From Longimicrobiales bacterium (lineage in GTDB: Bacteria > Gemmatimonadota > Gemmatimonadetes > Longimicrobiales > Gaopeijiaceae), in NCBI GenBank assembly GCA_958295645.1, contig OY282361.1:1-64000 (forward strand): DNA of 64,000 nt, in the 5' to 3' direction. Numbering within the stretch: the stretch's first letter is position 1; every line of letters starts with the position of its first letter. A model generated the notes under the pieces. That model was not told where the DNA came from and searched no databases. It saw only the letters and a list, made by a program, of their open reading frames with translations. Below, piece by piece: positions 1-36,845 of this stretch. A program made the position numbers and the translations under genes.

Positions 1-1049
1 TCGAGTTGTGGGTTGGCGATGACCAGGTTCCCGTTCTGGACCCGCGGGCCGTTGATGTCTTGGAACCGTACCTCACCTGCTACACGATCGTATACGACGG
101 CATCGAGCCGAAGAGTCGACGCGAAAGGAAGCAGTCGTTCAGCCGTCTCAAGGGTATCTGGCAGCTAGGCACTCTAGCGCTCAAGGCACTTGACGACGAG
201 CGACGTGGGCTTGAAAGCAGCGCATCCGACAGTCGGTTTGAGAATACGGTAGCACTGATTCGCTCTGGTCCTCTTATGGTAGTGGAATATATGAAAATGC
301 CGCGTGGCGGCGACCGAAAGTGTGTCGGTGTCTTTCTCGGTCATTCCGATGCCGACGAAGCTCTTCATCTCTCCGAACCGCCGTCGCATGACACGTGGAA
401 TCCCAATTCGCAAAGACTGCGGGATGCCTATCCAGACGATCCAGAAAAGCGCGAGTTGTTGCAGGAAATGGTGCGTAGCATCGTTCGTCGCATCAAGAAC
501 CATTGCAGTGAATTCCTCAAGGAACTCAATCCCAGTAGAGATCCGCCGGTAGCGCCGGGAACCAGGCGACTACAGCAGATTCTAGCAAGTGTTATGAACG
601 CGAAGAAGCTTGACCGTCCTCATCCTCCTCTTCGTCACTCGGATCCGTTTGAGATACGAATTTCGGAAAGGCGCGTCAACTCGGAAGCCACGTCGGTCGT
701 CGAGGCTCGCGTTCGGATTAAGTTGAGGTCGGCGGCTCAGGCAGACCGTGTCAGTGCACTCGTGTCGATCATCCCTGCCGTCGTAGTTGACGACAACATG
801 CGTCGCGAAGTATCCGGTCGCGTGTCTCTGGCGTTCATGAGTGTTGACGGAGAAGATGTTGATCTCTCTGCGAACGAGCAGGGCGTGGCCGTCGACGTCT
901 GCAAGGATCGCGACACAGTGGTAGACATGAGTTCCGAATCTTTCAATCGCGACTATTACGCCCGTCTCGATGTAGTTGTCACGAATCAGTCGAACGAATC
1001 GGCCGCAGACGGCGGTATATCGCGAGAGAACGGGGGGCCCCCGAGTTGA
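1..1049 (+). CDS. GHKL (MORC/Hsp90-like) ATPase, C-terminal part, cut by window edge
   Basis: The frame is open from the first base and reads as mid-protein, so the N-terminus with the ATP-binding GHKL fold probably lies outside the window. What is visible is a transducer-like stretch (about residues 1-175 of the visible part) with the pattern VGVFLGHSDADEALHLSEPP followed by a helical KRELLQEMVRSIVRRIK segment, then a beta-rich C-terminal domain (about residues 215-330). The same order is seen at the end of the intact GHKL ATPase at 31890-33648, and this is why I call it an ATPase; no nucleotide-binding motif is visible here. The stop overlaps the start of the next gene, so it is the first visible gene of an operon ending in a DNA methyltransferase. 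Base composition is more AT-rich than the core genes. A different multidomain protein remains possible. Confidence 0.5.
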   Translation, partial: ELWVGDDQVPVLDPRAVDVLEPYLTCYTIVYDGIEPKSRRERKQSFSRLKGIWQLGTLALKALDDERRGLESSASDSRFENTVALIRSGPLMVVEYMKMPRGGDRKCVGVFLGHSDADEALHLSEPPSHDTWNPNSQRLRDAYPDDPEKRELLQEMVRSIVRRIKNHCSEFLKELNPSRDPPVAPGTRRLQQILASVMNAKKLDRPHPPLRHSDPFEIRISERRVNSEATSVVEARVRIKLRSAAQADRVSALVSIIPAVVVDDNMRREVSGRVSLAFMSVDGEDVDLSANEQGVAVDVCKDRDTVVDMSSESFNRDYYARLDVVVTNQSNESAADGGISRENGGPPS

Positions 1050-2005
1050 ATGCCGCCGTTGGCAGGCATGGGCGCCGACGGACGGAACGGCGGTTGCTTC
1101 CGCCGTTCGGGGACGGGTGCAGCCCGAACAAATTGTCGAATCTTCTTGGCAGTCTCCTTGAGGATTGCCGGTTTTCTCCGTTCCCCAACCAACAGGCCGA
1201 CGATTCACCGTACTATCTTGAGCCAAGCGAGGCGGATCGGGCGATCGAGCCTCGATTCTCCTTCACCGTCAGCAACCTTGACGACGTCCGGAGTCGGCTT
1301 CCTTTGGCCGATGCGCATATGGAACTCGTCGTTTCTGTTCGTAGTAGCCGCTTGAAGCGATACAAGCACCTCGGCCAATGGGCCCTAGCTGACGTGCCAT
1401 CGAACTGGTCGCCAGCGTCGAGAGACATGGACGAAATGCAGGCCGGGGGCGCACTGGAGTTCATTCTCGCCATCCGCGTTGTCGTGGATGCCCCGATCCT
1501 GGCTCAGCACGGCGTCGGCATCGGCAAGGTGCTCTGCAGGCGCGAATTTGCGATCCGGCAGCGCATTGACGCCGTCTCGTTCCCGTTCAGCTGGCGCCAA
1601 TTTGGTGCGGACACGAGTTATCCGTCCGAACTGCTGTGGGCGATCAAGTGGAAAGATGCCACCGGCGAAGAACGGTATCTGCGGCCGATAGGCGATGTGC
1701 TTACGGTGTATATGAACAAGGCTGCCGAAGAACGGCTCAACGCGATGAATGCGGCGGCAGGGAAGGGAGACCTCACATGGAGGATGTTGGCTGCCGAGAT
1801 CATTACCCTAATATGGAGCGAAGTGCTTAGGGGCACGGAAAACGAGCCAGACCCGACCGACACGGATACGCTGGCTGGCCAAGTCTATGAGCGACTTGCA
1901 AACAGAAGCGGTCGCGCATACGCGGATATCCGCGGAATGGTTGAGGAGGAAGGCCTGTTGGAGCTTCGTTCTCACGTCGCTAGGATTGTTGGGGTCGTCG
2001 GGTAG
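1046..2005 (+). CDS. Unassigned 319-aa protein, middle gene of the GHKL ATPase operon
   Basis: I do not recognise a named family. The first 45 residues are basic and of low information, so the TTG start (TTGA overlap with the previous stop) may be too early; a downstream start is possible. The protein has an N-terminal beta-rich half (roughly residues 75-215) and a C-terminal helical half containing LTVYMNKAAEERLNAM and a hydrophobic helix with MLAAEIITLIW, then a final helix rich in Glu and Leu. This order (beta half, VYMN/VVNM-type motif, hydrophobic helix, charged C-terminal helices) is also seen in the 267-aa protein at 31065-31868, which occupies the equivalent place after a GHKL ATPase. 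No signal peptide or catalytic motif is seen. Inferred role: partner of the ATPase in a DNA-modification or defence module. Confidence 0.6.
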   Translation: MNAAVGRHGRRRTERRLLPPFGDGCSPNKLSNLLGSLLEDCRFSPFPNQQADDSPYYLEPSEADRAIEPRFSFTVSNLDDVRSRLPLADAHMELVVSVRSSRLKRYKHLGQWALADVPSNWSPASRDMDEMQAGGALEFILAIRVVVDAPILAQHGVGIGKVLCRREFAIRQRIDAVSFPFSWRQFGADTSYPSELLWAIKWKDATGEERYLRPIGDVLTVYMNKAAEERLNAMNAAAGKGDLTWRMLAAEIITLIWSEVLRGTENEPDPTDTDTLAGQVYERLANRSGRAYADIRGMVEEEGLLELRSHVARIVGVVG

Positions 2006-2028: not shown

Positions 2029-2796
2029 ATGACCAACGACTGCCGTCGAGTTAGAACGCTTTCCGACGAGAAGGCTCGAAGCGCGATTGAGGCACGACGT
2101 GACGGGTTGCCTCTAAAGTTGCTAGCGGGAGATTGCGGTACGATCGAGGGTCTGGGCAGCTGGGATCCGGCGGTCGTGGAAGACGCCTGTTCTGCGGTTC
2201 GTGATCTGCTCGTGAAGTTGCAGGAAGACGGCGTCAAGGTAAACGGCTTCAATTTCGATCGGGTGGCGTGTTCGCTGATTCACAAGAAAACGCAGTTGCC
2301 GTCAAGAGTGGCAGCGTCGGACGGTTTTTGGAAATGGATGGCCGTCGAGAAGTTGCCGGATGTCATTGAGGCTAGACGCCGGAATCCAACGAAGAACCGT
2401 CATGCCCGTTTGGAAAACTACGGCATCGACACTCCAGATATCGGCAAGAATCGCCTTGGGATAATATGGCTTCGGGCCAACATGCTTTTCGATAGAAAAG
2501 CGGACAATCCGTATCACCTTGCGGAGAGGTTCCTGCATACGGATTTTGTTGAATCAGCCATCATTCGACACAGATACGGTTATTGTCGCAACTTGGCCAG
2601 AGTGTTAGTAGAGTTTCAATATCGTCAGCCAACGAGCAAGAAGACCTATCTGCGCAATACTGGTTCTCGTAGCCCCATTCGCGAGTTGTACAAACGGCTT
2701 CGACATTTACACAGTGTCTATGCATTTGAGTTCATGAGCGAACCCGAGCTATGGTCTGTGCTGGAAAGGCATAGCAAGGATCTTCAGCGAGCCTAG
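2029..2796 (+). CDS. Unassigned W-rich helical protein (255 aa), third gene of the module
   Basis: The ATG at 2029 follows the previous stop by 23 bases. The protein is soluble and mostly helical. Its centre has an FWKWMAV motif (about residue 102), followed by an RLGIIWLRANM helix (about residue 143) and a Tyr/Arg-rich C-terminal helical region. An FW motif followed by a tryptophan-containing helix and a helical tail is also present in the 283-aa protein at 30221-31072. From memory this architecture recalls DUF6339-type proteins that accompany GHKL ATPases, but I cannot confirm that without a profile search. It sits between the ATPase-associated protein and the methyltransferase on the same strand, so it is probably co-transcribed with both. 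No enzymatic motif was found. Confidence 0.6.
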   Translation: MTNDCRRVRTLSDEKARSAIEARRDGLPLKLLAGDCGTIEGLGSWDPAVVEDACSAVRDLLVKLQEDGVKVNGFNFDRVACSLIHKKTQLPSRVAASDGFWKWMAVEKLPDVIEARRRNPTKNRHARLENYGIDTPDIGKNRLGIIWLRANMLFDRKADNPYHLAERFLHTDFVESAIIRHRYGYCRNLARVLVEFQYRQPTSKKTYLRNTGSRSPIRELYKRLRHLHSVYAFEFMSEPELWSVLERHSKDLQRA

Positions 2797-2800
2797 CGTC

Positions 2801-4123
2801 ATGATAGAAAAACATCAAGCATCGTTCGACAACGGCGGCGCGATTCGAGAGATGTTCTCCTGCAGCGACTCTCGGATCATCAAGAGCCTGAAAGTGTGTG
2901 ATGCGACGGGGGAGTCGTTTTGTCGCGGACGTGTGTCCGTGGACGAGTTGGAGAAGACGTCGTTGCAGTCTCAGTTCGATCATGCGTTGTTGCGAGGCGA
3001 AGTAGGATACGCACGCCGAGCCAACAAGCGGAGTGTTGCGATTGCCGACGTGTTCTGTGGTGCGGGGGGATTGTCGCACGGTATTCGCGAAGCCGTATTG
3101 GCAGCCGGCATGATGCCCGACTTCGTCTTCGCGGCCGACAACAGCGCGGTCGCGTTGGATGTGTACCGACGCAATTTTGATCCGGCCTGCTGGTCGTCAC
3201 GTAACGTCTGGACGTCGGTGACAACCAACTATTCGTATCGCAATGGCGAGGCCAGGTTCCTGGGAGAACCGATAATATTGGACGAATCGATGCTTCCAGC
3301 GGTTGGCGGCGTGGATATCTTGTTGGGCGGGCCGCCATGCGAGGGACACTCGACCTCCAACAATGTCAGCCGGCGGTCCGATCCGCGTAACATGTACTAT
3401 GTCGCGATGCCGTCCCTGGCCGTCGCATTGGGTGCGAAGGTGGTGATCGTCGAGAATGTGCCCGGGATCAGGCATGACCGCCGCCAGATACTGGATGAAG
3501 CGAGGGCTCTGTTTAGATCGCGAGGGTACTACGTGGCCGAAGCGGTAATTGATGCGACAACTCTTGGATTGCCGCAGACAAGGAAACGGCATATCCTTCT
3601 TGCGTCAATCAATGGAGCCCCGGATCTGTTGGGTGTTGTCGAAGCCGTAGGACGACCGCAACGGGACCTGCGGTGGGTGATTGGGGACCTTCTTCGACGG
3701 GCAGCACGCGATCCCATGGACGTGCCGGCCGAGTTGTCCGACACCAATCGGGCAAGGATAGACTACCTGTTTGATCACGACCTGTTTGACCTGCCCAACA
3801 ATTGGCGGCCGGACTGCCACAAGGACGGTCACACCTACCCATCGATCTATGGCAGACTACGGTGGGACAAGCCGGCGGGAACCATAACGACCGGTTTCAA
3901 TACGCCTGGACGTGGGCGGTACATACATCCCGAAGTCCGAAGAACCATCACTCCCCATGAAGCGGCAAGGATTCAGGGATTTCCCGACACGTTTGAGTTT
4001 AGGATGGTCAGCGGACAGCCCTTGTCGAGGACAAAGGCGTCAAACATGATCGGCGGTGCTGTTCCGCCCCAGATAGGCTACGCGGCTGGCGTTGCGGCGT
4101 TGGTTGCGTTGAGCGGCCGCTAA
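2801..4123 (+). CDS. DNA (cytosine-5-)-methyltransferase
   Basis: The protein should methylate cytosine at C5 in a specific DNA sequence using S-adenosylmethionine. Class motifs appear in order: motif I with FCGAGG near residue 86, motif IV GGPPCEGHS with the catalytic Cys near residue 180, motif VI ENV near residue 216, motif VIII QTRKRH near residue 259, and motif X ending NMIGGAVPPQIG near the C-terminus. At 440 aa it is slightly long for the family because about 78 residues precede motif I. The region between motifs VIII and X that would hold the target-recognition domain is short. The gene starts five bases after the upstream gene and closes the operon with the GHKL ATPase. No restriction endonuclease is visible, so cleavage, if any, would come from the module or from genes left of the window. 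Confidence 0.93.
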   Translation: MIEKHQASFDNGGAIREMFSCSDSRIIKSLKVCDATGESFCRGRVSVDELEKTSLQSQFDHALLRGEVGYARRANKRSVAIADVFCGAGGLSHGIREAVLAAGMMPDFVFAADNSAVALDVYRRNFDPACWSSRNVWTSVTTNYSYRNGEARFLGEPIILDESMLPAVGGVDILLGGPPCEGHSTSNNVSRRSDPRNMYYVAMPSLAVALGAKVVIVENVPGIRHDRRQILDEARALFRSRGYYVAEAVIDATTLGLPQTRKRHILLASINGAPDLLGVVEAVGRPQRDLRWVIGDLLRRAARDPMDVPAELSDTNRARIDYLFDHDLFDLPNNWRPDCHKDGHTYPSIYGRLRWDKPAGTITTGFNTPGRGRYIHPEVRRTITPHEAARIQGFPDTFEFRMVSGQPLSRTKASNMIGGAVPPQIGYAAGVAALVALSGR

Positions 4124-4175: not shown

Positions 4176-4799
4176 TCACTCGCCCGGGGACCCTTGTTCG
4201 GTTGCGCCGCACCAACGGGAGCGGAGCTCCGTTGCCAGGTCACGCCACAGCTTGTCGAATGAGGAAGCCGATCGCGCGGCCGCCATGTCGAAGGCCGCCG
4301 TGAGCGACGCTTGGTGCAAAGCGGGTCGGTAGGCCCCCTCCGACGCTTGGTGGCGGCTCAGCCATCCCTTGGCGTCCCGGATGCTTTCCGGATCGGCGGG
4401 AGAAGACATGTTCGCTCGCAATCCCTGCCTTCCCGCCAGCGATTCGGCCGCCGCGAGAAACCACGCTTCGTACTCTGCCTTGGCGAGGACGACGCGTGTC
4501 GTCCGGTCTGGCCGGGCTCTCGCGGCACGCCGCGCCAACCGCGGCCCGAGTTCGGCTGGGCAATCCGCATCGGCATCCAGGAGAACCAGAACCAGGCCCG
4601 CGGGAGCGACTCGTCCCGCCACGAAGTCGATGGCATCCTCGAAGTAGGGCCTCTTCACGACCTGTTGCCTCCCCCGCCGGAGCACCGTTATCCTGAGGTG
4701 CAAGCCGGGCGCTACGACACCGGCGATCCTACGCAGCAGCACCGGCACGGCGAGCGTCTCGCCCTTGCCTTCCACGATGACCCCGACGTCGCATGTCAC
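4176..4799 (-). CDS. DUF4276-type (Toprim-like) protein
   Basis: This 207-aa protein has the layout of DUF4276: VIVEGKGE at residues 7-14 supplies the first acidic residue, and VLLDADADC near residue 75 supplies the DxDxD triad, both typical of Toprim folds that bind metal and act on nucleic acids. A helical C-terminal half follows. The GTG start overlaps the stop of the upstream ATPase gene (GTGA), so the two are translationally coupled. Paired ATPase plus Toprim proteins are the basis of OLD-like and PARIS-type defence, where the Toprim protein is the effector. The pair here resembles that logic but I cannot say it is one of those systems. It converges with the methyltransferase gene with a 52-bp gap. 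Confidence 0.75.
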   Translation of the reverse strand: MTCDVGVIVEGKGETLAVPVLLRRIAGVVAPGLHLRITVLRRGRQQVVKRPYFEDAIDFVAGRVAPAGLVLVLLDADADCPAELGPRLARRAARARPDRTTRVVLAKAEYEAWFLAAAESLAGRQGLRANMSSPADPESIRDAKGWLSRHQASEGAYRPALHQASLTAAFDMAAARSASSFDKLWRDLATELRSRWCGATEQGSPGE

Positions 4800-6013
4800 C
4801 GGGAAGTCGCCGGGCCGAACAACGAGACTTGGGACGGTCGCAGACGCGAAGCGTTTTCGTCCGGCAGCAGTTGCTCCGCGCGCATCAGCTCGCCGACTGT
4901 GAAGGTGCCCTTCGCGATGGCCGATCTGCCCACCTCGTCGATGGGGCCGAACCGCCCGCCGCCCTCGCCGGACGCTACTACGATGATGGAGTCCGCCCGA
5001 ATGTCCTTGTGGTCAAGCAGGTCCGCGCTTTGGCTGGAGGCGATCACCTGAGTCCTGTCCGCGCCGTCCGCCAAGATGTCGAGCAGAACATCGAGCGCTC
5101 CGGGATGAAGCGCGGTCTCCGGCTCCTCAATGCCGACTAGGCCGCGGCGAGAACCGTCGTGGCCAGCTCCCTGCAACAACGCCGCCAACATGCCGACGAC
5201 CCTGAGCGTCCCGTCTGACATGTCGCTGGCGAAGAAACGCCTATGCTGCGTTCCTTCGCGAACCATCTTCCTGAACGCGAGCGTCTGTTTGGGACCCATC
5301 GTCAGTCTGTCCACGGCGACCAACTCCGGCACCACCGCCTGCAGGTAGAGGTCGATCCTCTCCTTGGTCGTCGGCGAACGCCGCTTGATGGTGTCCACCA
5401 CGCTGGCCAAGTTGCGCCCATCTTCCCGCAGGGGACCCGCCTCGGCCTCGTGCAGCTCCCGAATGACGGCCGGATCGAGCCGATAGACGCACATCTCCGA
5501 CAACGCCTTGAAGACGGGATGAAACTCGGGCACGGCCGCCAAGCGAATCAAGTACAGATTGTCCGGGGCGACGGGCGGAGGGTGGGAGAACGTGCACTCG
5601 GCCACCCGCCCCTTCTCGACTCGGCAGAAGTGGACTCCCTCCGGCCCCACGCGTCGGCATTCCTCTCGTCGCACGTCGATTCCGCCGTCGCCGTCCAACC
5701 CGACCGCGACAGCGTAGTGGCCCGCAATGTCCCCGAGGCCGTAGTCGAGGCGAATTCCGAAGTACCTTGCACGCCTCGTCGTCCGGCGCACGATCTCTCC
5801 GACGCCTCCGCGCTTGCGAACGGCGTCGGCCAACGAGGATCGGAGAGATTCTCCCACTAAGCCAAGTGCGTCGAGGAAGTTGCTCTTTCCCGAGCCGTTC
5901 GGCCCTACCAGGAACGAGAGCTGGCTCAGCTCCACGTCGCAGGCCGCGATGTTGCGGTAGTTGCGGATTCCGACCCGGGAGACTAGGCGGCGGCTGGAGG
6001 TTGGGGCGTTCAT
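4796..6013 (-). CDS. SMC/OLD-like AAA ATPase (AAA_21 type)
   Basis: This is a 405-aa ABC/SMC-class ATPase. The N-terminus has the typical VGIRNYRNIAACDVEL beta-hairpin, Walker A FLVGPNGSGKSN at about residues 34-45, Walker B with GIEEPETALHPG near residue 293, and a switch segment SSQSADLLDH near residue 322. The coiled-coil insertion is short, as in AAA_21/AAA_15 defence ATPases and not as in RecN or SMC. I chose the ATG at 6013 because the homologous hairpin begins shortly after it; the open frame further upstream runs into the insertion sequence and is not coding for this protein. The start is only 26 bp from the IS left end, so the native promoter may have been separated from the gene. 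The next gene is the Toprim-like partner. Confidence 0.85.
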   Translation of the reverse strand: MNAPTSSRRLVSRVGIRNYRNIAACDVELSQLSFLVGPNGSGKSNFLDALGLVGESLRSSLADAVRKRGGVGEIVRRTTRRARYFGIRLDYGLGDIAGHYAVAVGLDGDGGIDVRREECRRVGPEGVHFCRVEKGRVAECTFSHPPPVAPDNLYLIRLAAVPEFHPVFKALSEMCVYRLDPAVIRELHEAEAGPLREDGRNLASVVDTIKRRSPTTKERIDLYLQAVVPELVAVDRLTMGPKQTLAFRKMVREGTQHRRFFASDMSDGTLRVVGMLAALLQGAGHDGSRRGLVGIEEPETALHPGALDVLLDILADGADRTQVIASSQSADLLDHKDIRADSIIVVASGEGGGRFGPIDEVGRSAIAKGTFTVGELMRAEQLLPDENASRLRPSQVSLFGPATSR

Positions 6014-6098: not shown

Positions 6099-6882
6099 AT
6101 GAAGGAAGTGCTTTTGAGCGACGGGCAGTGGGAGCGTGTGCGTTGCCACTTTCCCGAGGAGGCGAGGCCGAAGGGGAGGCGGGGACGGCCGCCGGCGCCG
6201 ACTCGGCGTGTGCTGGAAGCGGTGCTGTGGATTCTGCACACGGGGGCGCAGTGGCGGTTTCTGCCGCAGTGCTACCCGAACCACAAGACGGTGCACCGGC
6301 GGTTTCAAGCGTGGGTCCGGGCGGGTGTGCTCGAGCGAGTGCTGGAGGACTTGGCGGGGGAAGCGAAGCAGCGGGGCCTCTTCGACGGAACGGAAGCGTA
6401 CGTGGACGCGTCGTTCGCGCGAGGCAAAGGGCGGGGGTGCGGACGTGGGAGTCGCGAAGGCGGGCAAGGGCGTGAAGATCATGGCGATCGTGGACCGTTG
6501 CGGGCTTCCGCTGTCGTTGAGCACGCATCCGGCCAACCCGCACGAATCGAAGCTGGTGCAGTTGTCGTTGGACTTGGCGTTCGCGCAGGAGGCGCCGGCG
6601 AACCTGATCGGAGACAAGGCGTACGACAGCGACGCTCTGGACGCGGCGTTGCGGGAGCGGGGTGTGGAGATGATCGCGCCGCACCGTCGCAACCGGAGAC
6701 GGCGCACGCAGGACGGTCGCCGTCTGCGCCGGGCGAAGCGGCGGTGGATCGTGGAGCGGTTCTTCGGCTGGATGCAGTGGAAGCGCAGGCTTCTGATCCG
6801 CTGGGAGCATCATCCGGAGAACTTTCTGGGCTTCGTGCAGTTGTCGGCGATCTGCATCTTCTTCAAGCATCTCGGTTTTTGA
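6099..6882 (+). pseudogene. IS5-family transposase in two frames
   Basis: The first part, from the ATG at 6099, carries the N-terminal DUF4096-like domain (LSDGQWERV, then a GRPP segment) and runs to the first catalytic block, YVDASFARGKG. The protein then continues in another frame as KGGGADVGVAKAGKG through the DDE core with LIGDKAYDSDAL and the C-terminal RWIVERFFGWMQWKRR (the Y/R-x-x-x-E-x-x-x-K/R signature region). The shift lies near 6421-6430 and is +1 (or -2). Some IS427-like elements use frameshifting to make transposase from two reading frames, but a -1 slip at this site would not restore the frame. I therefore favour a mutation or sequencing error, with programmed frameshifting as the alternative. 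Confidence 0.78.
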
Positions 6883-6891
6883 GATAGGTTC
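6875..6891 (-). repeat. IS right inverted repeat
   Basis: On the minus strand it reads GAACCTATCTCAAAAAC, one mismatch from the left repeat. It contains the TGA stop of the transposase. Confidence 0.88.
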
Positions 6892-30220: not shown

Positions 30221-31072
30221 CTACGCCACGAGCCTTTGCCACGGCGTATGTTCCGGCGACTGGCGAAGCCCCAGGCGAGCCAAGTCGGTTGCCACGCTCT
30301 GAACGTCTTTCGAGCCCAGACGACCGTTCTCGCGCAAAAGCGATTTCAAGCGGCGGACCACGGCGGCACGGGCAGTGCGTTGGGAGATGACTGTTACGCT
30401 CCTGAGCCCCAGCCGCGCCAGCGTCTCCCACGCCTGTCTGTTCGCGTGAAGTACCTCATGGGCCTCGTCGGCGGACATGCCCGCGTGCGGGACCGCCGCC
30501 ACCTGCTCGGCCACATGGACTCGCCACCAAGCGCGAGCAAGAGGACAATCGGAGAAGACGGAGGTCTTGCCTCTCTCGTGGGGAATTCCGCCGGTGCGCC
30601 GGAGGAAGTTTCGGGTCTTCGCCTCCAGATCCTTGCCCCCGCCAACGAGCGCGGCTTCCAGGCGGTGACCAGCTTGGTCGAAGCGGCCCTGTTCGATCCA
30701 CTCGACGTGACAGAGCAGCCAGAACACCGGCTGGGACGCGAGCCGAGGTCTTACTCCGGGCCAAGCCGCCCACAGTTCGCGTTCTAGTTCGACCGGAGGC
30801 GTCCGGAACTCGTCTGAAGTGAGCTGATCTCGCGGGAACCCGGGAGCATCGATCTTCTCGTCGCCAATGTGCAATGCCCCTCGCAGGTAGGCCCCGAGGC
30901 TTGCGTGACCGGCCTTGATGGCCGACTGAAGCGCTTCCTGCCGTTCGCGAATGGGCTCCCAGACACGCCGGTTCTGCTCGTTGGGCTCCCCGTGACGGCC
31001 CTTGTCGAAGACGATCTCTTTTTGCCACCGGCTGAACTTCGTGCCGGCGGCATCCAGCAACGGGCTATTCAC
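30221..31072 (-). CDS. Unassigned W-rich helical protein (283 aa), last gene of the second module
   Basis: The GTG at 31072 overlaps the stop of the upstream gene (GTGAATAG) and follows GGGGAGAG, which decides the start; the open frame upstream of it is antisense-like sequence. The protein is soluble and helical. It has an FWLLCHVEWIEQGRF motif near residue 112, an LARAWWRVHVAEQV helix near residue 185, and a C-terminal helical region (RAAVVRRLKSLL). An FW motif, then a tryptophan helix, then helices is the same order as in the 255-aa protein at 2029-2796. From memory it recalls DUF6339 proteins; unverified. It is the third gene after the GHKL ATPase in both loci. Confidence 0.62.
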   Translation of the reverse strand: MNSPLLDAAGTKFSRWQKEIVFDKGRHGEPNEQNRRVWEPIRERQEALQSAIKAGHASLGAYLRGALHIGDEKIDAPGFPRDQLTSDEFRTPPVELERELWAAWPGVRPRLASQPVFWLLCHVEWIEQGRFDQAGHRLEAALVGGGKDLEAKTRNFLRRTGGIPHERGKTSVFSDCPLARAWWRVHVAEQVAAVPHAGMSADEAHEVLHANRQAWETLARLGLRSVTVISQRTARAAVVRRLKSLLRENGRLGSKDVQSVATDLARLGLRQSPEHTPWQRLVA

Positions 31073-31868
31073 TGTCGCTCTCTCCCCTGACCGGGGCTGG
31101 CCGGAAGGGTTCAAGAAGCGTCGCGACCATGGCTGGATCGTAGGTAGCCGGATCTTCCCACAACGTGATCCCGGGGCGGATGCTCTCCAAGCGCTCGCGA
31201 AGTTCGCGTACCAGCGGCAGCTCGTCGTCGTCGTCTCCGCTTCGGAAGGCATGTGGAAACTGCGCGCACGCTCCAACCAGCGCGGCAATCTGCACGCTCC
31301 GGTCGTAGCGAGCTTGCTCGTAAGCATCGGGGGCCATGTTGACGACAAACCGCAGGTTCCCGCTGCCGTGGTCAGACGCCACTTCCATGCGGCCCTTCTT
31401 CAAGCCCTTGTCGAGACGAAAACTGAGGAGCGACTCCAACAGCGTACTGGCCCGGCAAGTGTATCCCCGCGCCAGCCAGTATCCCTGCGGAACGTGAAGA
31501 TCGCCGATGTCTTGGTACAGCGAAGTGAGGTCGGACGCGTCCAAACGAAGGTCTTCTCGTGCCAGGAGCCCGGGCATGATGAAGATGTCGCCGTCCACGT
31601 CGTCGGCATCCCATTTCACGACATGGCGAGCCTCTGCGGACGATTCGATCTTCGCCATGAGAGTCTTCGGACAACGGATCTCGACGGCCCAGGCGGCGCT
31701 CCGACTGTCGATGAGATGTTCAAGCACGGGGGCGTTCGACAAGCGGTGGGTCACGGTGGCTTGGCCGGCGCCTGCTCGGATGTCGGCCGTGTACTGGGCG
31801 TCGGTCCAGTCCATCCGAGAGCCGTCCTCGAGAAGCAATGGGAGGGAGTCCGTGGCGCGATCAGTCAT
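31065..31868 (-). CDS. Unassigned beta-rich protein (267 aa), middle gene of the second module
   Basis: I cannot name a family. The N-terminal 135 residues look like a beta-sandwich-type region (AWAVEIRCPKTLMAK, IFIMPGLLA); the segment GYWLARGYTCRASTLLESLL leads into LRFVVNMAPDAYEQARYD, then a helix with VQIAALVGACAQF and a charged helical end (LVRELRERLESIRPGI). This order matches the 319-aa protein at 1046-2005. The ATG at 31868 lies 21 bp after the stop of the ATPase gene, and the 3' end overlaps the start of the next gene. Likely a structural or specificity partner of the ATPase; this is inference from position. Confidence 0.65.
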   Translation of the reverse strand: MTDRATDSLPLLLEDGSRMDWTDAQYTADIRAGAGQATVTHRLSNAPVLEHLIDSRSAAWAVEIRCPKTLMAKIESSAEARHVVKWDADDVDGDIFIMPGLLAREDLRLDASDLTSLYQDIGDLHVPQGYWLARGYTCRASTLLESLLSFRLDKGLKKGRMEVASDHGSGNLRFVVNMAPDAYEQARYDRSVQIAALVGACAQFPHAFRSGDDDDELPLVRELRERLESIRPGITLWEDPATYDPAMVATLLEPFRPAPVRGESDSE

Positions 31869-32325
31869 TTGGCAGTTGCGGTGGAGGCGTCAGTTCGCGG
31901 CGGAGCCATTGGGACGATCGGACGGCGGCTCGAGAGGCCGACGCCGCACCAAGTCGATTTCAATGGCATTGGGGTCGGTCGCGGGCTCGGCAAGGACGAC
32001 GGTGAAGGTGCGGCAACCGCTGGGCAGTTGAGCTTCGTAGCCGTCCTCGCCTGGACGGGCAACGCCGCCCGAGAATCGAACGCTCTCGATCGGAAGCCAC
32101 TTCGGGGCCAACGGGGCCTCGCAGGTCTCGTCGGAACCGGAGGGCACGCGAACCCTGACCCCGAGCATGTCCTTCGCGTGCAGGCCGCCGTCGCGCAGTT
32201 GCCATGCTACGCGTATCGCGTGTATCCGCCCTTCGTCGCCGGACACGGCAACCCAAGAGGAGCGAGCGGACACGCCCCGGCCCGGCTTGGGCGCCGCGCC
32301 CGCCCGCGTCTTTCGCTTCTTGCCC

Positions 32326-32332
32326 TTTTTTT
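32326..32332 (-). repeat. A7 tract at the ATPase frameshift
   Basis: On the coding strand AG is followed by seven A and GGG. Six A would keep the N-terminal frame continuous with the C-terminal domain. Confidence 0.8.
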
Positions 32333-33309
32333 CTGGGGGATTGATCGGCGATATGTTGCAGGAGGGCGAGAAGCTTCTTGCTGTCCGGGGGTTCAAGCCG
32401 TTGGCGGTCCAGTCCACGGTGCTCGGGTCCCTCGGCCCCACGCACCAAGCGCGCCAATCCTCCGGACTCGACCATGATCACCGCGGCGAAGGGCTTGTTG
32501 CTCCGAAAGCGGCGGGGCTCCAGTGCGTCGGCGTCGTTGGTGATCCACATGCCGCTGCGAAACACCTGCACCCGCGGCAACGGTCTTGCCTCGTGTTGGC
32601 CCAACGGCAGAACGTATGCGTCGGCGCCTGCGCCGAGCATGAATCGCTCTCCTTGCTCGAGCGTTTCCCATGCTTGGTAAGCCTGTGCGCCCGGAAGCCA
32701 TCCTCCCTTTTGTTCGCCTAGCTTCCTTGCCTTGTCTCGTTCGAGGATCGTCCCCAAGGTTTCGTGGTCGACAACGGTCTCGCGGTCGTCCTCGTCACGA
32801 ATCGTCACGGTCATCTTCTTGTTCCAGATGGCCACGAGAAAATTCTTCGCGGCCACGCGCGCGATGGCCGCCGCGGGATCGGCTTTGTCCGACCGGAAAT
32901 TGTTGAACCCCGTGATGCACACGACGCTGCCGGTGTCGCCGAGGCAATCGAGTTCGCGCAGCAGCAGGGGCGGCGCCTTGTCGGGATAGAGTGGATCGAA
33001 GAGATCGGGGGGTCTGCTCGAGTCCGTGCGGGCCAGCCAATAGCCGTGGCCGCCATGCTTGTACTTCTTGCAAGATGCCAGGATGGCGTGACCGCTGGCC
33101 ATGTCCTTCGTGTTCCCGGCCGGATCTCTTGATCGCCCAGCGTAGAGCACGTAGCGCAGATCCGAAGCGGCGAAAGCCGTCAGATGACCGATTCCAAAGG
33201 CCCCTGCGCCCGACTGTCCCTTGGCCGTATTGCCTTGGGTCAGGATCCTCTCGATGTTGCCGGAATCAAGTCCTACGCCGTTGTCCCGGCAAAACAAGAG
33301 GCGCACCGA

Positions 33310-33330
33310 CCCCCCCCCCCCCCCCCCCCC
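33310..33330 (-). repeat. 21-bp mononucleotide G tract (C on plus strand) inside the ATPase gene
   Basis: Twenty-one identical bases in frame, coding seven glycines between the N and G1 boxes. One-base slippage would abolish the ATPase. In the read given here the length is a multiple of three. Confidence 0.9.
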
Positions 33331-33658
33331 GAGAATTTGGCGAATCCTCTTGATCACCTGCTTCTCGGAAACGCCCTGCGTGCCCATCTCGCGCTCGGCA
33401 ACTGCCTGTTCGAAGTGTTCGCGATAGGCTTCGATGCCGGGTATGTCGGCCAACGGCACTTCCTTGATCGAAAACGACACTTCGCTTTTCGTGCGGCCAG
33501 CTTCGTCAGCGGCGTCCAAACAGTTCTGCAGGAGTTCGCGAACGACGGGCTCCGGATTGCCCGTCCATTGGGTCATCGCGAGAGTCGAAAAGCCTTGCGG
33601 CTCGCCCGGGGGAAAACAGAGGTCGTCGGGCAGTTCGTGCTTCGTCATGGCAAGAGTT

Positions 33659-34969
33659 CTAATCCGTGCAGTCGCAGGCCAGTGCGCCCGTCGCGTAGCG
33701 TCCGAGGTCGGGTGCGCTCCCCCGGGCGATTTCGGAGAACGTGGGGCCGGTCACCCCGAGGAAGCCGAACCGTGTCATGCCCTCGCCGTTTCGCGCGGCC
33801 ACCTGGCGCTGGTAGCGTTCTTCCATCTCGACCCACCACCCGATGTCCGACGGCGTCTCGGTACGGCGCTGGGGATCGGCGGCACAGGCGGCCTTGGCCA
33901 GGAACCGTGTGCCCTTCATGAAGCAGAAGACGCAGTTGCCCCCGTGCTCCGGCCCGCCGAGGTCGAAGTCGCGCCCGCGCCAGAAGTTGCGGACGGCGTC
34001 GGCGTCGAATCCCCAGTCCGCCAGCGGAAAGCACGGATGCTCGCCCGGCGGCTGCGTGTGAATGGAACAGGACTTGCTGGCGCCTTCCGCGAAGAACGAC
34101 CGCGAGTTGATCTTGGCGATGCGCTTGCCTTCGTCTGTCCGCAAGCCCAGCACGGTGACGTGTTCGGCGGCGTCGGCTCCCCACATCGGGGCTGGGCCAA
34201 GCGTCGGGGCTGGGCTGGGCATTGACGCACGGCCGGACGTCTGCGTGGGGCCAGAACGCCGCTCCCGGCTGGGGACCGGGGCGTTCGTGTAGTCGCGCCA
34301 ACGCTGGGCGGGTCTGGCCGCAGGCTGTTCCGTCATGAACTTCACGCGCTCTCGGTAGGCCGTGGCGGAGGCCGCGCCGCGGTTCCGGCGGTACTGGACC
34401 AGCGCGGAGTCGGGCGTCACGTAGCGTCGGTCGCTGTAGTGTCCGGCATGTGCGGGACCGGTCGTGGCGCCCAGCCACTCGGCGAGCAGTTCGTGCGACG
34501 GGTAGAGCTTGAGCTTGGCCGTGCAGGAGCGGCTGTGGGGATTGGGCAACATGCCCTGGTAGGACAGCATCTCCTCGAAGACTTCGCCGCTGGACCGAAA
34601 GCCGTTCGGGTTGCTCTCCACCGGCTCGGGAAGCACCAAGCGGTACGACGGACGCCGGGCGTAGAATCCCCGCGAGGCGTCTTCCACGGTGCAGAACTCG
34701 AACCAGAAGAACGGGATGCCGAAGTCGTTCTCGAGGCGACGCTTGCACTCGCGGGCGAACTCGTAGGTCGCCGGATGCTCCGCGGACGTGTTGGCGAACA
34801 GGATCGCGTCGCCGCGCTCGGCGTCGAGCAGGCCCTCCTCCGCCAGAACGAACGCCAGCGCGGCCGAAGAGCGTCCGCCGGAGAACTTCACCACATGCGG
34901 AAGCGACTCGTGCTCCGCGGCGCGAGAGGGGATCGCCTTGGCGCGGCGAGCGGGCGCGGGCTGGATCAA
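33659..34969 (-). CDS. PAPS-reductase/DndC-like PP-loop protein
   Basis: A 436-aa member of the adenylyl-PP-loop superfamily. The PP-loop is HVVKFSGGRSSAALAF at about residues 25-40; FANTSAEHPATYEFA follows as in PAPS reductase-like proteins. Cysteine motifs RSCTAKLKLYP near residue 147 and GNCVFCFMKG near residue 345 could hold an iron-sulfur cluster, as in DndC. A Pro/Ala/Gly-rich low-complexity insertion occupies about residues 235-260. Family members activate a target by adenylation and transfer sulfur or reduce sulfate; DndC-type proteins help replace DNA backbone oxygen by sulfur. No other dnd genes are visible. The stop lies 10 bp before the ATPase start, so it is the first gene of that operon. 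Confidence 0.8.
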   Translation of the reverse strand: MIQPAPARRAKAIPSRAAEHESLPHVVKFSGGRSSAALAFVLAEEGLLDAERGDAILFANTSAEHPATYEFARECKRRLENDFGIPFFWFEFCTVEDASRGFYARRPSYRLVLPEPVESNPNGFRSSGEVFEEMLSYQGMLPNPHSRSCTAKLKLYPSHELLAEWLGATTGPAHAGHYSDRRYVTPDSALVQYRRNRGAASATAYRERVKFMTEQPAARPAQRWRDYTNAPVPSRERRSGPTQTSGRASMPSPAPTLGPAPMWGADAAEHVTVLGLRTDEGKRIAKINSRSFFAEGASKSCSIHTQPPGEHPCFPLADWGFDADAVRNFWRGRDFDLGGPEHGGNCVFCFMKGTRFLAKAACAADPQRRTETPSDIGWWVEMEERYQRQVAARNGEGMTRFGFLGVTGPTFSEIARGSAPDLGRYATGALACDCTD

Positions 34970-35060: not shown

Positions 35061-36845
35061 CTACTCGGACTTGGCAACAGCGGCGTAGTCGAACACGCAG
35101 GACGCGCCGATCACCTCTCGAAACCAGACAGTGACCGTACTGCCAAAGGCGTCGGTCAGCTTGAGAGGCTCGTTCAGCTGGAAGTGGACGGGTTGAATGG
35201 CTCCGTCGTCGATGGCGACGTTGTCGGCGTAGACGTAGAGGCGGTCGAGATTGTCGCGGATGGGGTTGAGTCTGCCGCGAATGCCGGGCGCGTGCCCCGT
35301 TTGGTTCGGGATGACCACGGAGCCGCCGACGGGGACGGGTTGCATTCGCACCGCCAGAGTGCCGCCGGGCTCGCCGTCCGGCCGGTAGTCGGACACGACC
35401 CGGGCCGCAAATCCGGGCGAGGCGCAACACACTGTCATGGGCAAAATTGCGTACAGTTCGAAGTCGGCGTGGCCGAAGGTGTCGGTCCGGGCCTCGAGAT
35501 AGGTGTTGTTGGGGTAGACCAAAAGGACATGCACGTCGCGGAGGGGCTTGCCAGTGTCGTCGTGGACGACCTCGATCCGAGCCTCGACGCCCTCGGGCGA
35601 CGGCGGGCTCGCCACGGGCAGAATCACCTTGAGTTCGCGGTCGCTGACGAAGAGAGGCTTGCGACCGGCCAGCGCAAACGTCTCGTCCTCGATGGTTCCA
35701 ACGCCCTCGCCCCGCCGCTCGATGAAGTACTGCCGCCCGCCGGCTCCCGCCGTCTCGCCCACGGGGCACTGCCCAAGCCGCGACGCCAGCAGTTCGTTGC
35801 GGGTGAACTGGCTGGTGCGCATGTCGTCCACGGTCATGGAGTTGCCCAGGCCGCCCGGAGAGTGGAGTTCCAGCCGGTCGTCGAACATGAACAGACGTAT
35901 CTTGGCGCCGGAGACGGAGTAGTCGCGGTGGACCACGGCGTTGACCACGGCCTCGAAGACGGCGCGCTCGCTGTACTGCGGCACGTCGCGACGGGCCGGT
36001 TCCTTGCGGGCGGCGACCCGGCGGTTGCGCAGGACGAACCGCACTGCCTCTCGAATCTGCTGGTCGATCGGCCCCGTGATGTCCATGGCGTCCAGCTGGC
36101 GGTTGCCGTCGCGGCGGTCGCCGCGGTAGCAGACGGCCTGGATGAAGGCGTTCGGCAACCATTCGCGGGGGTCCTGGCTGGCCAGAAGCACGCCTCCCAC
36201 GGTCGCGCGGAGCGTGCCGTGGACGTCTTCCTTGACGAACTTGAGCTTGCCCAACGCGATCGCGCGCGAGTCGCCGGCACGCGAGCTGGCGTACCGCCGC
36301 CAAAGCTCCGGGTCCAAGCTGCCCACGGTCGTGCCCGCGACGACCTGCGCGTCGACGGATTCCGCGTCGGATTGGCCGCGCGCCTGGAGGAGCCGCCGGA
36401 TCTCGGTTGGTTCCATGAGCCGCTTGCTGTTCCCGCGCCGCCGGAAGAATCCGCCCGGCGAGCGGTGCACGTCCTTTCCCATCGGGACTTCCACTGCCAG
36501 CACTCCGCAGTCCGGTTGCATGCCGGTCTTCGGTGCGTCGCGTATCGGAACTCGGTAAAGGCGAAAATCGAGAGGCGGCTTGATGCTGTCGGTGCAGAGT
36601 TCCGTCACGAAGTCGGCAACCGCGTCCAGCGCATCCGGAGCCAGCGGTTGCGGCTCGCGCTGGTCGGTGACGCCGAAGACGAGGCGGCCGCCGGTTGAAT
36701 TGGCGAAGGCCGCCAGCTCGTCGGCCACGGCCTTCCGCGTCGGCGACGACACTCGGCCTCCCTTGACCTCGACCTCCTTGAACTCAAGCTCCGAGTCCTC
36801 GCCAAGCCGCACTTGACGCCAGAACCGAGTCTCGTCAATGGGCAT
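35061..36845 (-). CDS. AlbA_2/Schlafen-type DNA-binding protein with ATPase-like and carboxypeptidase-regulatory-like domains
   Basis: A 594-aa protein. Residues about 1-150 are an AlbA_2/SLFN domain: SELEFKEVEVKGGRV, AFANSTGGRLVFGVTD, FFRRRGNSKRLM. Residues about 250-400 carry the HATPase_c_4-like region usual in COG2865 proteins, with FEAVVNAVVHRDYS and LELHSPGGLGNSMT. Instead of the usual winged helix, residues about 430-500 show a carboxypeptidase-regulatory-like beta domain (GKPLRDVHVLLVYPNNTYLE, TDTFGHADFEL), followed by a further beta region. COG2865 proteins occur in regulation and phage-defence contexts. It lies 91 bp upstream of the PAPS-reductase-like gene on the same strand and might belong to that cluster. 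Confidence 0.82.
   Translation of the reverse strand: MPIDETRFWRQVRLGEDSELEFKEVEVKGGRVSSPTRKAVADELAAFANSTGGRLVFGVTDQREPQPLAPDALDAVADFVTELCTDSIKPPLDFRLYRVPIRDAPKTGMQPDCGVLAVEVPMGKDVHRSPGGFFRRRGNSKRLMEPTEIRRLLQARGQSDAESVDAQVVAGTTVGSLDPELWRRYASSRAGDSRAIALGKLKFVKEDVHGTLRATVGGVLLASQDPREWLPNAFIQAVCYRGDRRDGNRQLDAMDITGPIDQQIREAVRFVLRNRRVAARKEPARRDVPQYSERAVFEAVVNAVVHRDYSVSGAKIRLFMFDDRLELHSPGGLGNSMTVDDMRTSQFTRNELLASRLGQCPVGETAGAGGRQYFIERRGEGVGTIEDETFALAGRKPLFVSDRELKVILPVASPPSPEGVEARIEVVHDDTGKPLRDVHVLLVYPNNTYLEARTDTFGHADFELYAILPMTVCCASPGFAARVVSDYRPDGEPGGTLAVRMQPVPVGGSVVIPNQTGHAPGIRGRLNPIRDNLDRLYVYADNVAIDDGAIQPVHFQLNEPLKLTDAFGSTVTVWFREVIGASCVFDYAAVAKSE

Follow-up and report, generated by a model that had tools for sequence, protein, structure and literature searches.

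Why would a single bacterial genome hold what appears to be the same three-gene module more than once, in one place beside a DNA methyltransferase and in another beside an enzyme of the phosphorothioation type? The question arises from the window analyzed here, i.e., a stretch of 64,000 nucleotides that starts at base 1 of a single 2.886-Mb Longimicrobiales contig. A first-pass annotation had proposed that a GHKL ATPase (hereafter A), a beta-rich protein (B), and a W-rich helical protein (C) form a constant core with exchangeable modifying enzymes.

A common core with two kinds of enzyme

The order of genes is as first described at both loci. Copy 2 lies on the minus strand and opens with the SspD/DndC-like PP-loop enzyme of the PAPS-reductase family (33659..34969, 436 aa; SspD E = 7e-10, phrog_424 PAPS reductase 1.4e-32). 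Ten bp past this gene begins core A, an HSP90/MutL/MORC-like GHKL ATPase (31960..33648; PDC-M33A E = 4e-25) that also matches the sacsin/HSP90-like N-terminal ATP-binding domain (3e-6) and has conserved N-box RE..QN..D, D.G.GL, and GAGAFGIGH motifs. Core B is a beta-rich protein of 267 aa (31065..31868; PDC-M33B E = 3e-6), and core C, overlapping it by 8 bp, is a W-rich, all-helical DUF6339 relative of 283 aa (30221..31072). Copy 1 lies on the plus strand: the C-terminal half of its core A (1..1049) is joined in frame, over the contig ends, to an N-terminal half at G000:C1:2884624-2885659, giving an ATPase of ~690 aa in total (the A-family HMM matches the N-terminal half at E = 9e-12), and is followed by a core B of up to 319 aa (1046..2005), a DUF6339 core C of 255 aa (2029..2796; PF19866 E = 9.9e-11, PDC-M33C 6e-4), and, 4 bp past core C, a C5-cytosine DNA methyltransferase of 440 aa (2801..4123; PF00145 E = 4.8e-33, DruM/MTase_II models ~1e-84).

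The one-to-one correspondence of B and C between the two loci, originally drawn by eye, was borne out by profile-profile comparison of independently built families: copy 2-type B matched methylase-type B (93% probability, E = 4e-7, 165 columns) and copy 2-type C matched DUF6339-type C (91%, E = 9e-7, 165 columns), while crossed controls of B against C stayed below 0.1%. A generic GHKL similarity as the sole link between the copies was thereby ruled out, and at the level of sequence copies 1 and 2 are confirmed to carry one common A-B-C core. Genome-wide, this core occurs four times, with a C5-methyltransferase in copies 1 and 3, with the SspD/DndC-like enzyme in copy 2, and alone in copy 4, whose type of B and C is not detectably related to those of the others (hhalign).

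A GHKL ATPase is present in both copies, as the first-pass annotation had it, but the beta-rich end that the two were said to share is out of frame in copy 2. Its true C-terminal frame (31890..32333 on the minus strand, within the ORF 31890–32441) has been shifted relative to the catalytic part by a 179-bp deletion at ~32348, as judged against the sister locus L037, and the copy 2 ATPase may be inactive. Programmed frameshifting at an A7 run was ruled out, since the deletion (2 mod 3) in the L037 alignment explains the shift. Structure predictions were obtained for core B (pLDDT 82, pTM 0.54), for which weak matches to an Ig/FN3-like fold (E ~3e-3, TM ~0.25) were set aside, and for core C (pLDDT 88, pTM 0.86), which is all-helical and matched no PDB structure. 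Neither protein has a functional annotation or a convincing fold match, and the enzyme and ATPase profiles returned nothing useful from PDB sequences. The copy 2 operon itself encodes no nuclease, and no nuclease motif was recognized in A, B, or C.

The SspD/DndC-like enzyme

Across 25 homologues, the PP-loop SGGR and cysteines C149, C346, and C349 are invariant, and C301, C432, and C434 nearly so. The match to SspD is partial. Since the Pfam PAPS_reduct score falls below threshold (17.5 vs. a cut-off of 22.5 bits) and the DndC model does not match, the chemistry of the copy 2 enzyme could be different. One relative (L041) shows a fusion of a core-C/DUF6339 domain with an SspD-like domain (SspD 8e-16, phrog_424 9e-43). 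An SspA/DndA-like cysteine desulfurase, a call in which DndA and IscS are inseparable by the scores used, adjoins the enzyme in four loci (L028, L065, L077, and L078) and is not found beside copy 2. A profile scan of IMG/VR detected no such enzyme, and a search of plasmids and phages yielded one weak match, on a Bosea plasmid from the sponge Callyspongia, together with distant phage PAPS reductases.

Distribution and ATPase phylogeny

Wherever enough flanking sequence is available, the SspD-like enzyme adjoins A-B-C in all loci but one (L063). These loci span at least six phyla and two gene orders, mostly in MAGs with sponge-survey names, so that the sulfur type is likely carried for the most part by sponge symbionts or other sponge-associated bacteria; about one-third of them have an adjacent GmrSD_N/DUF262 gene. 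The same core also occurs with a C5-methyltransferase, Vsr, and a type II restriction endonuclease in restriction-modification (R-M) loci on plasmids of cultured bacteria, among them Priestia and Planococcus: neighboring C5-methyltransferase and/or Vsr genes were found at copies 1 and 3, at L027, and on four plasmids, and not in SspD-like loci. Cores with no enzyme were seen at copy 4, L036, and L038–L040. The neighborhood survey that the first-pass annotation had called for thus recovered core homologues with either enzyme, co-occurring across many genomes. Of the two outcomes that the annotation had named as fatal to its idea, a lack of profile or structural match between the paired proteins and homologues that never co-occur, neither was observed.

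In the ATPase tree, the DndC-like type forms one well-supported clade and the methylase type one main clade, with copy 1 and L035 unplaced on long branches. Neither enzyme type strays outside one ATPase subfamily, so that enzymes are fixed per subfamily and swapping was ancient rather than promiscuous; free exchange among close relatives was ruled out. The notion of a constant core with exchangeable enzymes therefore holds over deep evolution but not as frequent swapping, and some cores stand alone. The two further copies, the likely sponge-symbiont distribution, the poly-G tract, with the phase variation it implies, and the correspondence to PDC-M33 (both below) had not featured in the original annotation.

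Poly-G/C tracts in the sulfur-type operon

A G21 homopolymer (33310..33330, minus strand) lies immediately ahead of the DNGVGL motif inside the ATPase gene of copy 2, and it is in frame here and encodes seven glycines; in the sister genome (L037/L042), a tract at the identical site is out of frame. Poly-G/C tracts of 9–21 nt were found across the sulfur-type loci inside the enzyme gene, just past its start codon, or inside the ATPase gene. Tracts of ≥9 nt numbered 12 within or ≤300 bp before the operon compared to 1 outside (p = 3e-6), with 4 of the 12 in frame and 8 out. They recur at an identical protein position in 7 Actinomycetota MAGs, just past the ATG in 3 others, and in 2 Gemmatimonadota within the ATPase gene, with homologous sequence flanking both sides. 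In addition, a Campylobacter MAG has a G8 tract in its ATPase gene, where 0.05 would be expected in that locus.

Because ~11 runs that reach 9 nt or more would be expected across all loci from a first-order model alone, the case for these tracts rests on their position, their length, and the inside/outside contrast. A compositional tail was ruled out, as runs of 6–8 nt are rarer inside operons than outside while runs of ≥12 nt are in excess (8 observed vs. 0.27 expected under the first-order model). All lengths were taken from assemblies rather than reads, and artefact-like poly-G runs at contig ends (L033/L056 and L066) were left out of the counts. Homopolymers in a gene or at its start, with in- and out-of-frame alleles among relatives, are the pattern by which contingency loci are recognized, and this pattern indicates a phase-variable sulfur-type operon in which slippage would occur at poly-G/C. 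In several genomes, e.g., L047, L067, and L069, the tract puts only the enzyme gene out of frame and A-B-C is apparently intact. The literature searched yielded no report of phase variation in an SspD/DndC-like gene. Separately, the source genome has poly-G tracts just past the start of tandem, glycosyltransferase-like membrane-protein genes.

Relation to known systems

The closest counterpart is PDC-M33, an unnamed PADLOC candidate with the same A, B, C order, whose C is Pfam DUF6339. Its models match all three proteins of copy 3 (A 1e-99, B 1e-39, C 4e-36), A and B of copy 2, and C of copy 1. They include neither an SspD-like enzyme nor phase variation, and they miss core C of copy 2, which is linked by profile-profile comparison only (E = 9e-7). 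No paper on DUF6339 or PDC-M33 was found in the literature searched.

The sulfur-type locus resembles Dnd/Ssp systems (DndA-E, SspA-D, SspE) in its PP-loop/PAPS-reductase-like enzyme with conserved cysteines, in the DndA- or IscS-like desulfurase of some loci, an activity that Dnd/Ssp systems may receive in trans, and in its GmrSD_N neighbor, a domain that the SspE N-terminus weakly resembles. It differs in having a GHKL ATPase with B and C, and its PADLOC match is to SspD only, and partial. A, B, and C matched none of the DndB/D/E and SspB/SspC models; a search for DndE in the source genome also returned no match, with its positive controls equally silent and the search hence uninformative. 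Type-4 BREX (PMC12839542) likewise has a defense core in which a PAPS reductase replaces the methyltransferase, but that core is unrelated: no BREX model (including PglZ, BrxC, and BrxL) matched A, B, C, or the scanned neighbors. In the DndDE/CxC-ABC cores (PMC10853773), one DNA-scanning ATPase core is paired with either phosphorothioation or cytosine methylation, the core being an ABC ATPase with the RHH protein DndE rather than a GHKL ATPase with B and C; neither GHKL nor MORC appears in that paper.

The methylase-type loci recall the MORC/paraMORC R-M operons (PMC2292703), with an intact-motif GHKL ATPase beside a C5-methyltransferase and Vsr; the nucleotide-binding motifs RE..QN..D, D..G, and G.G are invariant in core A. 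A superfamily II helicase is present in ~70% of MORC/paraMORC operons; in the loci read, the A-B-C core contains none. The present core is further set apart by its fixed partners B and C, and the sections consulted of PMC2292703 do not describe an SspD-like variant. Finally, in Pgl (PMC4365076) phage defense is switched by a run of G's within the modification gene, although Pgl has other proteins and another chemistry, and the tracts described here occupy three sites in two genes across phyla.

A proposed mechanism and its alternatives

The core probably has a role in bacterial virus defense, and the enzyme likely modifies DNA with sulfur. We propose that copy 2 is a phase-variable, GHKL-ATPase-centered relative of R-M/phosphorothioation defense, and regard the chances of the following scheme as evenly balanced. 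A cysteine desulfurase (host IscS or, in some relatives, one encoded at the locus) would pass sulfur to the SspD/DndC-like PP-loop enzyme, which would activate a DNA group with ATP and then insert the sulfur. The A-B-C core, taking the place of DndD-DndE, SspB-SspC, or BREX proteins, would act as an ATP-driven platform that binds or clamps DNA, directs the enzyme to its target, and links the mark to an effector, for which the GmrSD_N/DUF262 product, encoded next door in many relatives, is a candidate. In copies 1 and 3 and on plasmids, the homologous core would instead serve a C5-methyltransferase, accompanied by Vsr and type II endonucleases. The sulfur version would be switched on and off by slippage at poly-G/C in the enzyme or ATPase gene. 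Core homology, the operon association, the enzyme's conserved motifs, and enriched tracts that recur in position with alleles in and out of frame are observed; its defense role, DNA as substrate, sulfur as mark, effector coupling, and within-population switching are what we infer from these comparisons.

A different division of labor has a modest chance of being correct: A-B-C and the enzyme may form one complex in which the enzyme is needed for restriction whatever the mark, as Mod is for type III Res and PglX for Pgl/BREX, making loss of the enzyme a harmless shutdown. This would account for phase variation of the enzyme or the ATPase alone, and has precedents in the phase-variable G tract of pglX (PMC4365076) and in the PAPS reductase that replaces the methylase in type-4 BREX (PMC12839542); it is, however, compatible with the scheme above rather than exclusive of it. 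A classic R-M reading, in line with the framing of the first-pass annotation, would have an enzyme that marks self DNA and an A-B-C core that by itself attacks unmarked DNA. MORC/paraMORC ATPases are indeed known from R-M operons (PMC2292703), and methyltransferase-type cores sit among Vsr and type II endonucleases, but we consider this reading unlikely: an autonomous attacker would kill cells such as those of L047, L067, and L069, and A, B, and C show no recognized nuclease motif. As worded, the annotation's inference that the module reads modification status while the enzyme marks self is likewise not supported. Because the enzyme alone is out of frame beside an intact core in several genomes, the pattern of alleles argues that the core alone does not attack unmarked self DNA.

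It also seems quite improbable that the SspD-like enzyme is an effector or a metabolic enzyme (a PP-loop ATP pyrophosphatase with nucleotides or tRNA as substrate) rather than a DNA modifier. Among broad families it comes nearest to phrog_424, the PAPS-reductase auxiliary genes of phages, for which no substrates are established, and it escapes the DndC model; nevertheless, it is paired almost obligatorily with a core that otherwise accompanies DNA methyltransferases, and its neighbors include a cysteine desulfurase and GmrSD_N. That the tracts arose as errors of sequencing or assembly, or are neutral repeats, is very hard to credit, error-prone homopolymer lengths and artefact-like contig ends notwithstanding, given internal tracts that recur at matching sites and the G8 tract in Campylobacter.

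Beyond the scheme proposed for copy 2, we suggest tentatively, and with the balance slightly against it, that these loci may represent a further route by which DNA is modified with sulfur. The Dnd/Ssp/BREX machinery would here be replaced by a GHKL ATPase together with two uncharacterized proteins, and poly-G phase variation and horizontal spread among unrelated, mostly sponge-associated bacteria would yield a sulfur-based, phasevarion-like defense. If this is true, a GHKL-based core would join BREX and DndDE/CxC in the small group of defense cores that accept methylation or a PAPS-reductase enzyme as partner, suggesting a general design rule of a DNA-scanning motor with plug-in chemistry. The phase-variable SspD/DndC-like gene would provide a direct test of the core's need for its enzyme, while DUF6339 and PDC-M33 would gain partners and a testable role. 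Uncultured, apparently sponge-associated bacteria would, in turn, be a source of switchable defense systems.

The three-gene core and its homology

The window spans the initial 64 kb of a single contig of 2,885,659 bp. It holds two copies of a core of GHKL ATPase (A), beta-rich protein (B) and W-rich helical protein of the DUF6339 family (C). On the minus strand, copy 2 forms a compact operon led by an SspD/DndC-like PP-loop enzyme (33659-34969), after which come A (start 33648), B (31868-31065) and C (31072-30221). Copy 1 lies on the plus strand, with a C5-methyltransferase (2801-4123) after A, B (1046-2005) and C (2029-2796); each gene begins at most ~25 bp from the previous stop or overlaps it. 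Its ATPase reading frame stays open from the contig end (G000:C1:2884624-2885659) through the join and on to base 1049 of the window, which suggests a circular chromosome. A genome search followed by reading of the loci added two copies: at ~2.70 Mb, copy 3 (L006), in the order C5-methyltransferase, A, B, C, and at ~2.415 Mb, copy 4 (L007), an A-B-C core that adjoins no enzyme.

Directly downstream of copy 1 lies a HEC-01A/HEC-01B pair, an OLD-like ATPase and its partner (4176-4799 and 4796-6013, minus; E=1e-128 and 1e-65), which makes this window end a small defence island; a split IS5-like transposase in two overlapping frames sits beside it (6099-6887, plus). Immediately upstream of copy 2 is an AlbA_2/Schlafen protein with a RecG-C-like ATPase part (35061-36845, minus).

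The first-pass annotation had matched the core proteins of copies 1 and 2 one to one by eye, and this correspondence is real. When profiles of DndC-type and methylase-type proteins were made independently and compared with hhalign, C matched C (165 columns, E=9e-7, probability 91%) and B matched B (165 columns, E=4e-7, probability 93%), with crossed B versus C controls below 0.1%; the ATPases are alignable over their length and retain the N-box, D-G and G-G motifs. Matches to the PADLOC candidate system PDC-M33 were strong for copy 3 (1e-99, 1e-39 and 4e-36 for models A, B and C), and were 4e-25 (A) and 3e-6 (B) for copy 2 and 6e-4 for the copy 1 C protein, which matched Pfam DUF6339 at 1e-10. 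The copy 4 ATPase falls inside the A family, and its B and C showed no hhalign tie to the other copies with profiles built from three sequences only.

Enzyme partners across genomes

We searched 298 genomes of the phylum and the window's own genome for PDC-M33A and DUF6339 and read the resulting loci. An SspD-like enzyme adjoined the core in copy 2, L028-L034 and L037, a C5-methyltransferase in copies 1 and 3, L027 (with Vsr) and L035, and neither in copy 4, L036 and L038-L040; no core in these genomes had both. Scanning 84,980 species genomes from the enzyme side gave 37 loci. Only four lack an adjoining A, and since a contig end truncates three of them (L064, L073, L077), L063 is the single true exception. 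B and C are present wherever the contig extends, apart from a few incomplete loci (for instance L045, a B fragment only; L044, neither found). Gene order was enzyme-A-B-C, or A-B-C-enzyme in L065, L072 and L078, and the loci span Gemmatimonadota, Acidobacteriota, Chloroflexota, Actinomycetota, Pseudomonadota and Campylobacterota. Plasmids from cultured Deinococcus, Priestia, Planococcus and Arthrobacter carry methylase-type cores together with a C5-methyltransferase and with Vsr and/or type II endonucleases, and A-B-C is also present in Lactococcus and Ligilactobacillus. In five of six plasmid cores (L079, L080, L081, L083, L085), an ORF of ~76-80 aa immediately precedes the ATPase gene and possibly encodes a controller protein.

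In the ATPase tree, every enzyme-linked core falls in one clade (support 100/99), most methylase-linked cores in a separate one (100/98) and solo cores in a third, with copy 1 and L035 left as unplaced long branches. The alternation of enzymes on a constant core, as proposed earlier, therefore stands, as an ancient one and not as frequent exchange. Different phyla are intermingled in the enzyme clade (e.g., L034 from Gemmatimonadota and L045 from Acidobacteriota), pointing to horizontal transfer.

Most enzyme-type loci come from metagenome-assembled genomes (MAGs) with sponge-project-like isolate names (RHO, CAR, COS, APA, Cymbastela), and a weak plasmid relative of the enzyme comes from a Callyspongia isolate. 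Robbins et al. sampled the sponges Rhopaloeides, Carteriospongia, Coscinoderma and Aplysina (PMC8163846). Judging from the names, most enzyme-type loci would be sponge-associated.

The SspD-like enzyme and its neighbors

The copy 2 enzyme matched SspD (7e-10) and the phage PAPS-reductase family phrog_424 (1.4e-32), fell below the cut-off for Pfam PAPS_reduct and had no match among DndC models. Across 25 homologues the SGGR PP-loop is kept, as are Cys 149, 346 and 349, and Cys 301, 432 and 434 are nearly invariant, a pattern that, by analogy with DndC-type enzymes, is compatible with a bound Fe-S cluster. In L028, L065, L077 and L078 the enzyme has an adjoining cysteine desulfurase (SspA/DndA/IscS family), and about one-third of enzyme loci have a GmrSD_N (DUF262) gene close by; L065 has the complete run A-B-C-enzyme-desulfurase-GmrSD_N. 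The fuller operons are L028, L065 and L078, which combine core, enzyme and desulfurase and have a GmrSD_N match, or a fragment of one, in the vicinity. An independent link between C and this enzyme class comes from a 448-aa protein (L041:7216-8559, minus) joining DUF6339 to an SspD-like/phage-type domain of a different PAPS-reductase lineage.

Homopolymer tracts

The copy 2 ATPase gene contains an in-frame G21 run (33310-33330) encoding seven glycines, at the site of a short loop in most relatives. The sister-genome locus (L037/L042) has G21 at the same site, with flanks that shift the remaining part of the gene out of frame. Actinomycetota enzyme genes share a common G-tract site, in frame in L053 (G12) and L058 (G10) and out of frame in L067 (G15), L068 (G11), L069 (G10), L070 (G15) and L071 (G12); contigs starting within ~20 bp (L074, L075) or ~55 bp (L076) of it are as expected of an assembly break at the tract. 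Directly after the enzyme ATG, a C tract is in frame in L050 (C10) and out of frame in L047 (C15); in L057 (C9) the ATG is out of frame, and a downstream TTG could serve as start. Four of 12 tracts are in frame, close to the one-third expected for random lengths.

Excluding contig ends, runs of at least 9 nt numbered 12 inside operons or within 300 bp before them versus 1 elsewhere (62 vs 2 per Mb, p=3e-6), with no enrichment of 6-8 nt runs inside operons. Since a first-order model alone predicts ~11 runs of at least 9 nt over all loci, the case for phase variation is borne by position, length (8 runs of at least 12 nt observed vs 0.27 expected) and the inside/outside contrast. In a Campylobacter MAG (L072), the ATPase gene contains an in-frame G8, against 0.05 expected for that locus.

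Elsewhere in the window's genome, three tandem, similar membrane-protein genes (L100, G000:C1:1883000-1895000) carry G20, G26 and G11 within their first codons; glycosyltransferase-like in look, they are probably phase-variable surface genes. A type IIG/ISP-like restriction-methyltransferase gene (L096:2790-6047, G000:C1 ~329 kb) with C18 at 5245-5262 is a candidate phase-variable defence gene. These further long tracts fit an organism using such switches.

Relative to L037, the copy 2 ATPase linker lacks 179 bp (junction ~32348), which puts its beta-rich C-terminal domain out of frame. If the deletion is real, copy 2 may currently be truncated or non-functional.

Proposed working and relation to known systems

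Taking as established the conserved core, the conserved operonic partner, the sulfur-enzyme family traits and the switch-like tracts, we infer that the enzyme, with a cysteine desulfurase, would insert sulfur into DNA, that A-B-C would position it and couple the mark to restriction, and that tract slippage would toggle the system on and off. In some genomes (e.g., L047, L067, L069) only the enzyme gene is out of frame and the core genes look intact, so A-B-C by itself probably does not destroy unmarked self DNA. This is the main departure from the first-pass annotation, in which the module reads modification status and the enzyme marks self. The core might instead depend on the enzyme for its action, as in Pgl/BREX or type III restriction-modification, or might act on the mark itself, as SspE acts on the DNA mark.

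The closest known systems are PDC-M33, for which the literature searched yielded no publication, MORC/paraMORC restriction-modification operons, Dnd/Ssp, type-4 BREX and DndDE/CxC cores, the last of which pair with cytosine methylases. None of them, as described in the literature searched, joins a GHKL core to an SspD-like enzyme, and the same literature yielded no SspD/DndC-type system under phase variation. We tentatively suggest, at somewhat less than even odds, that copy 2-type systems could represent new machinery for DNA sulfur modification.
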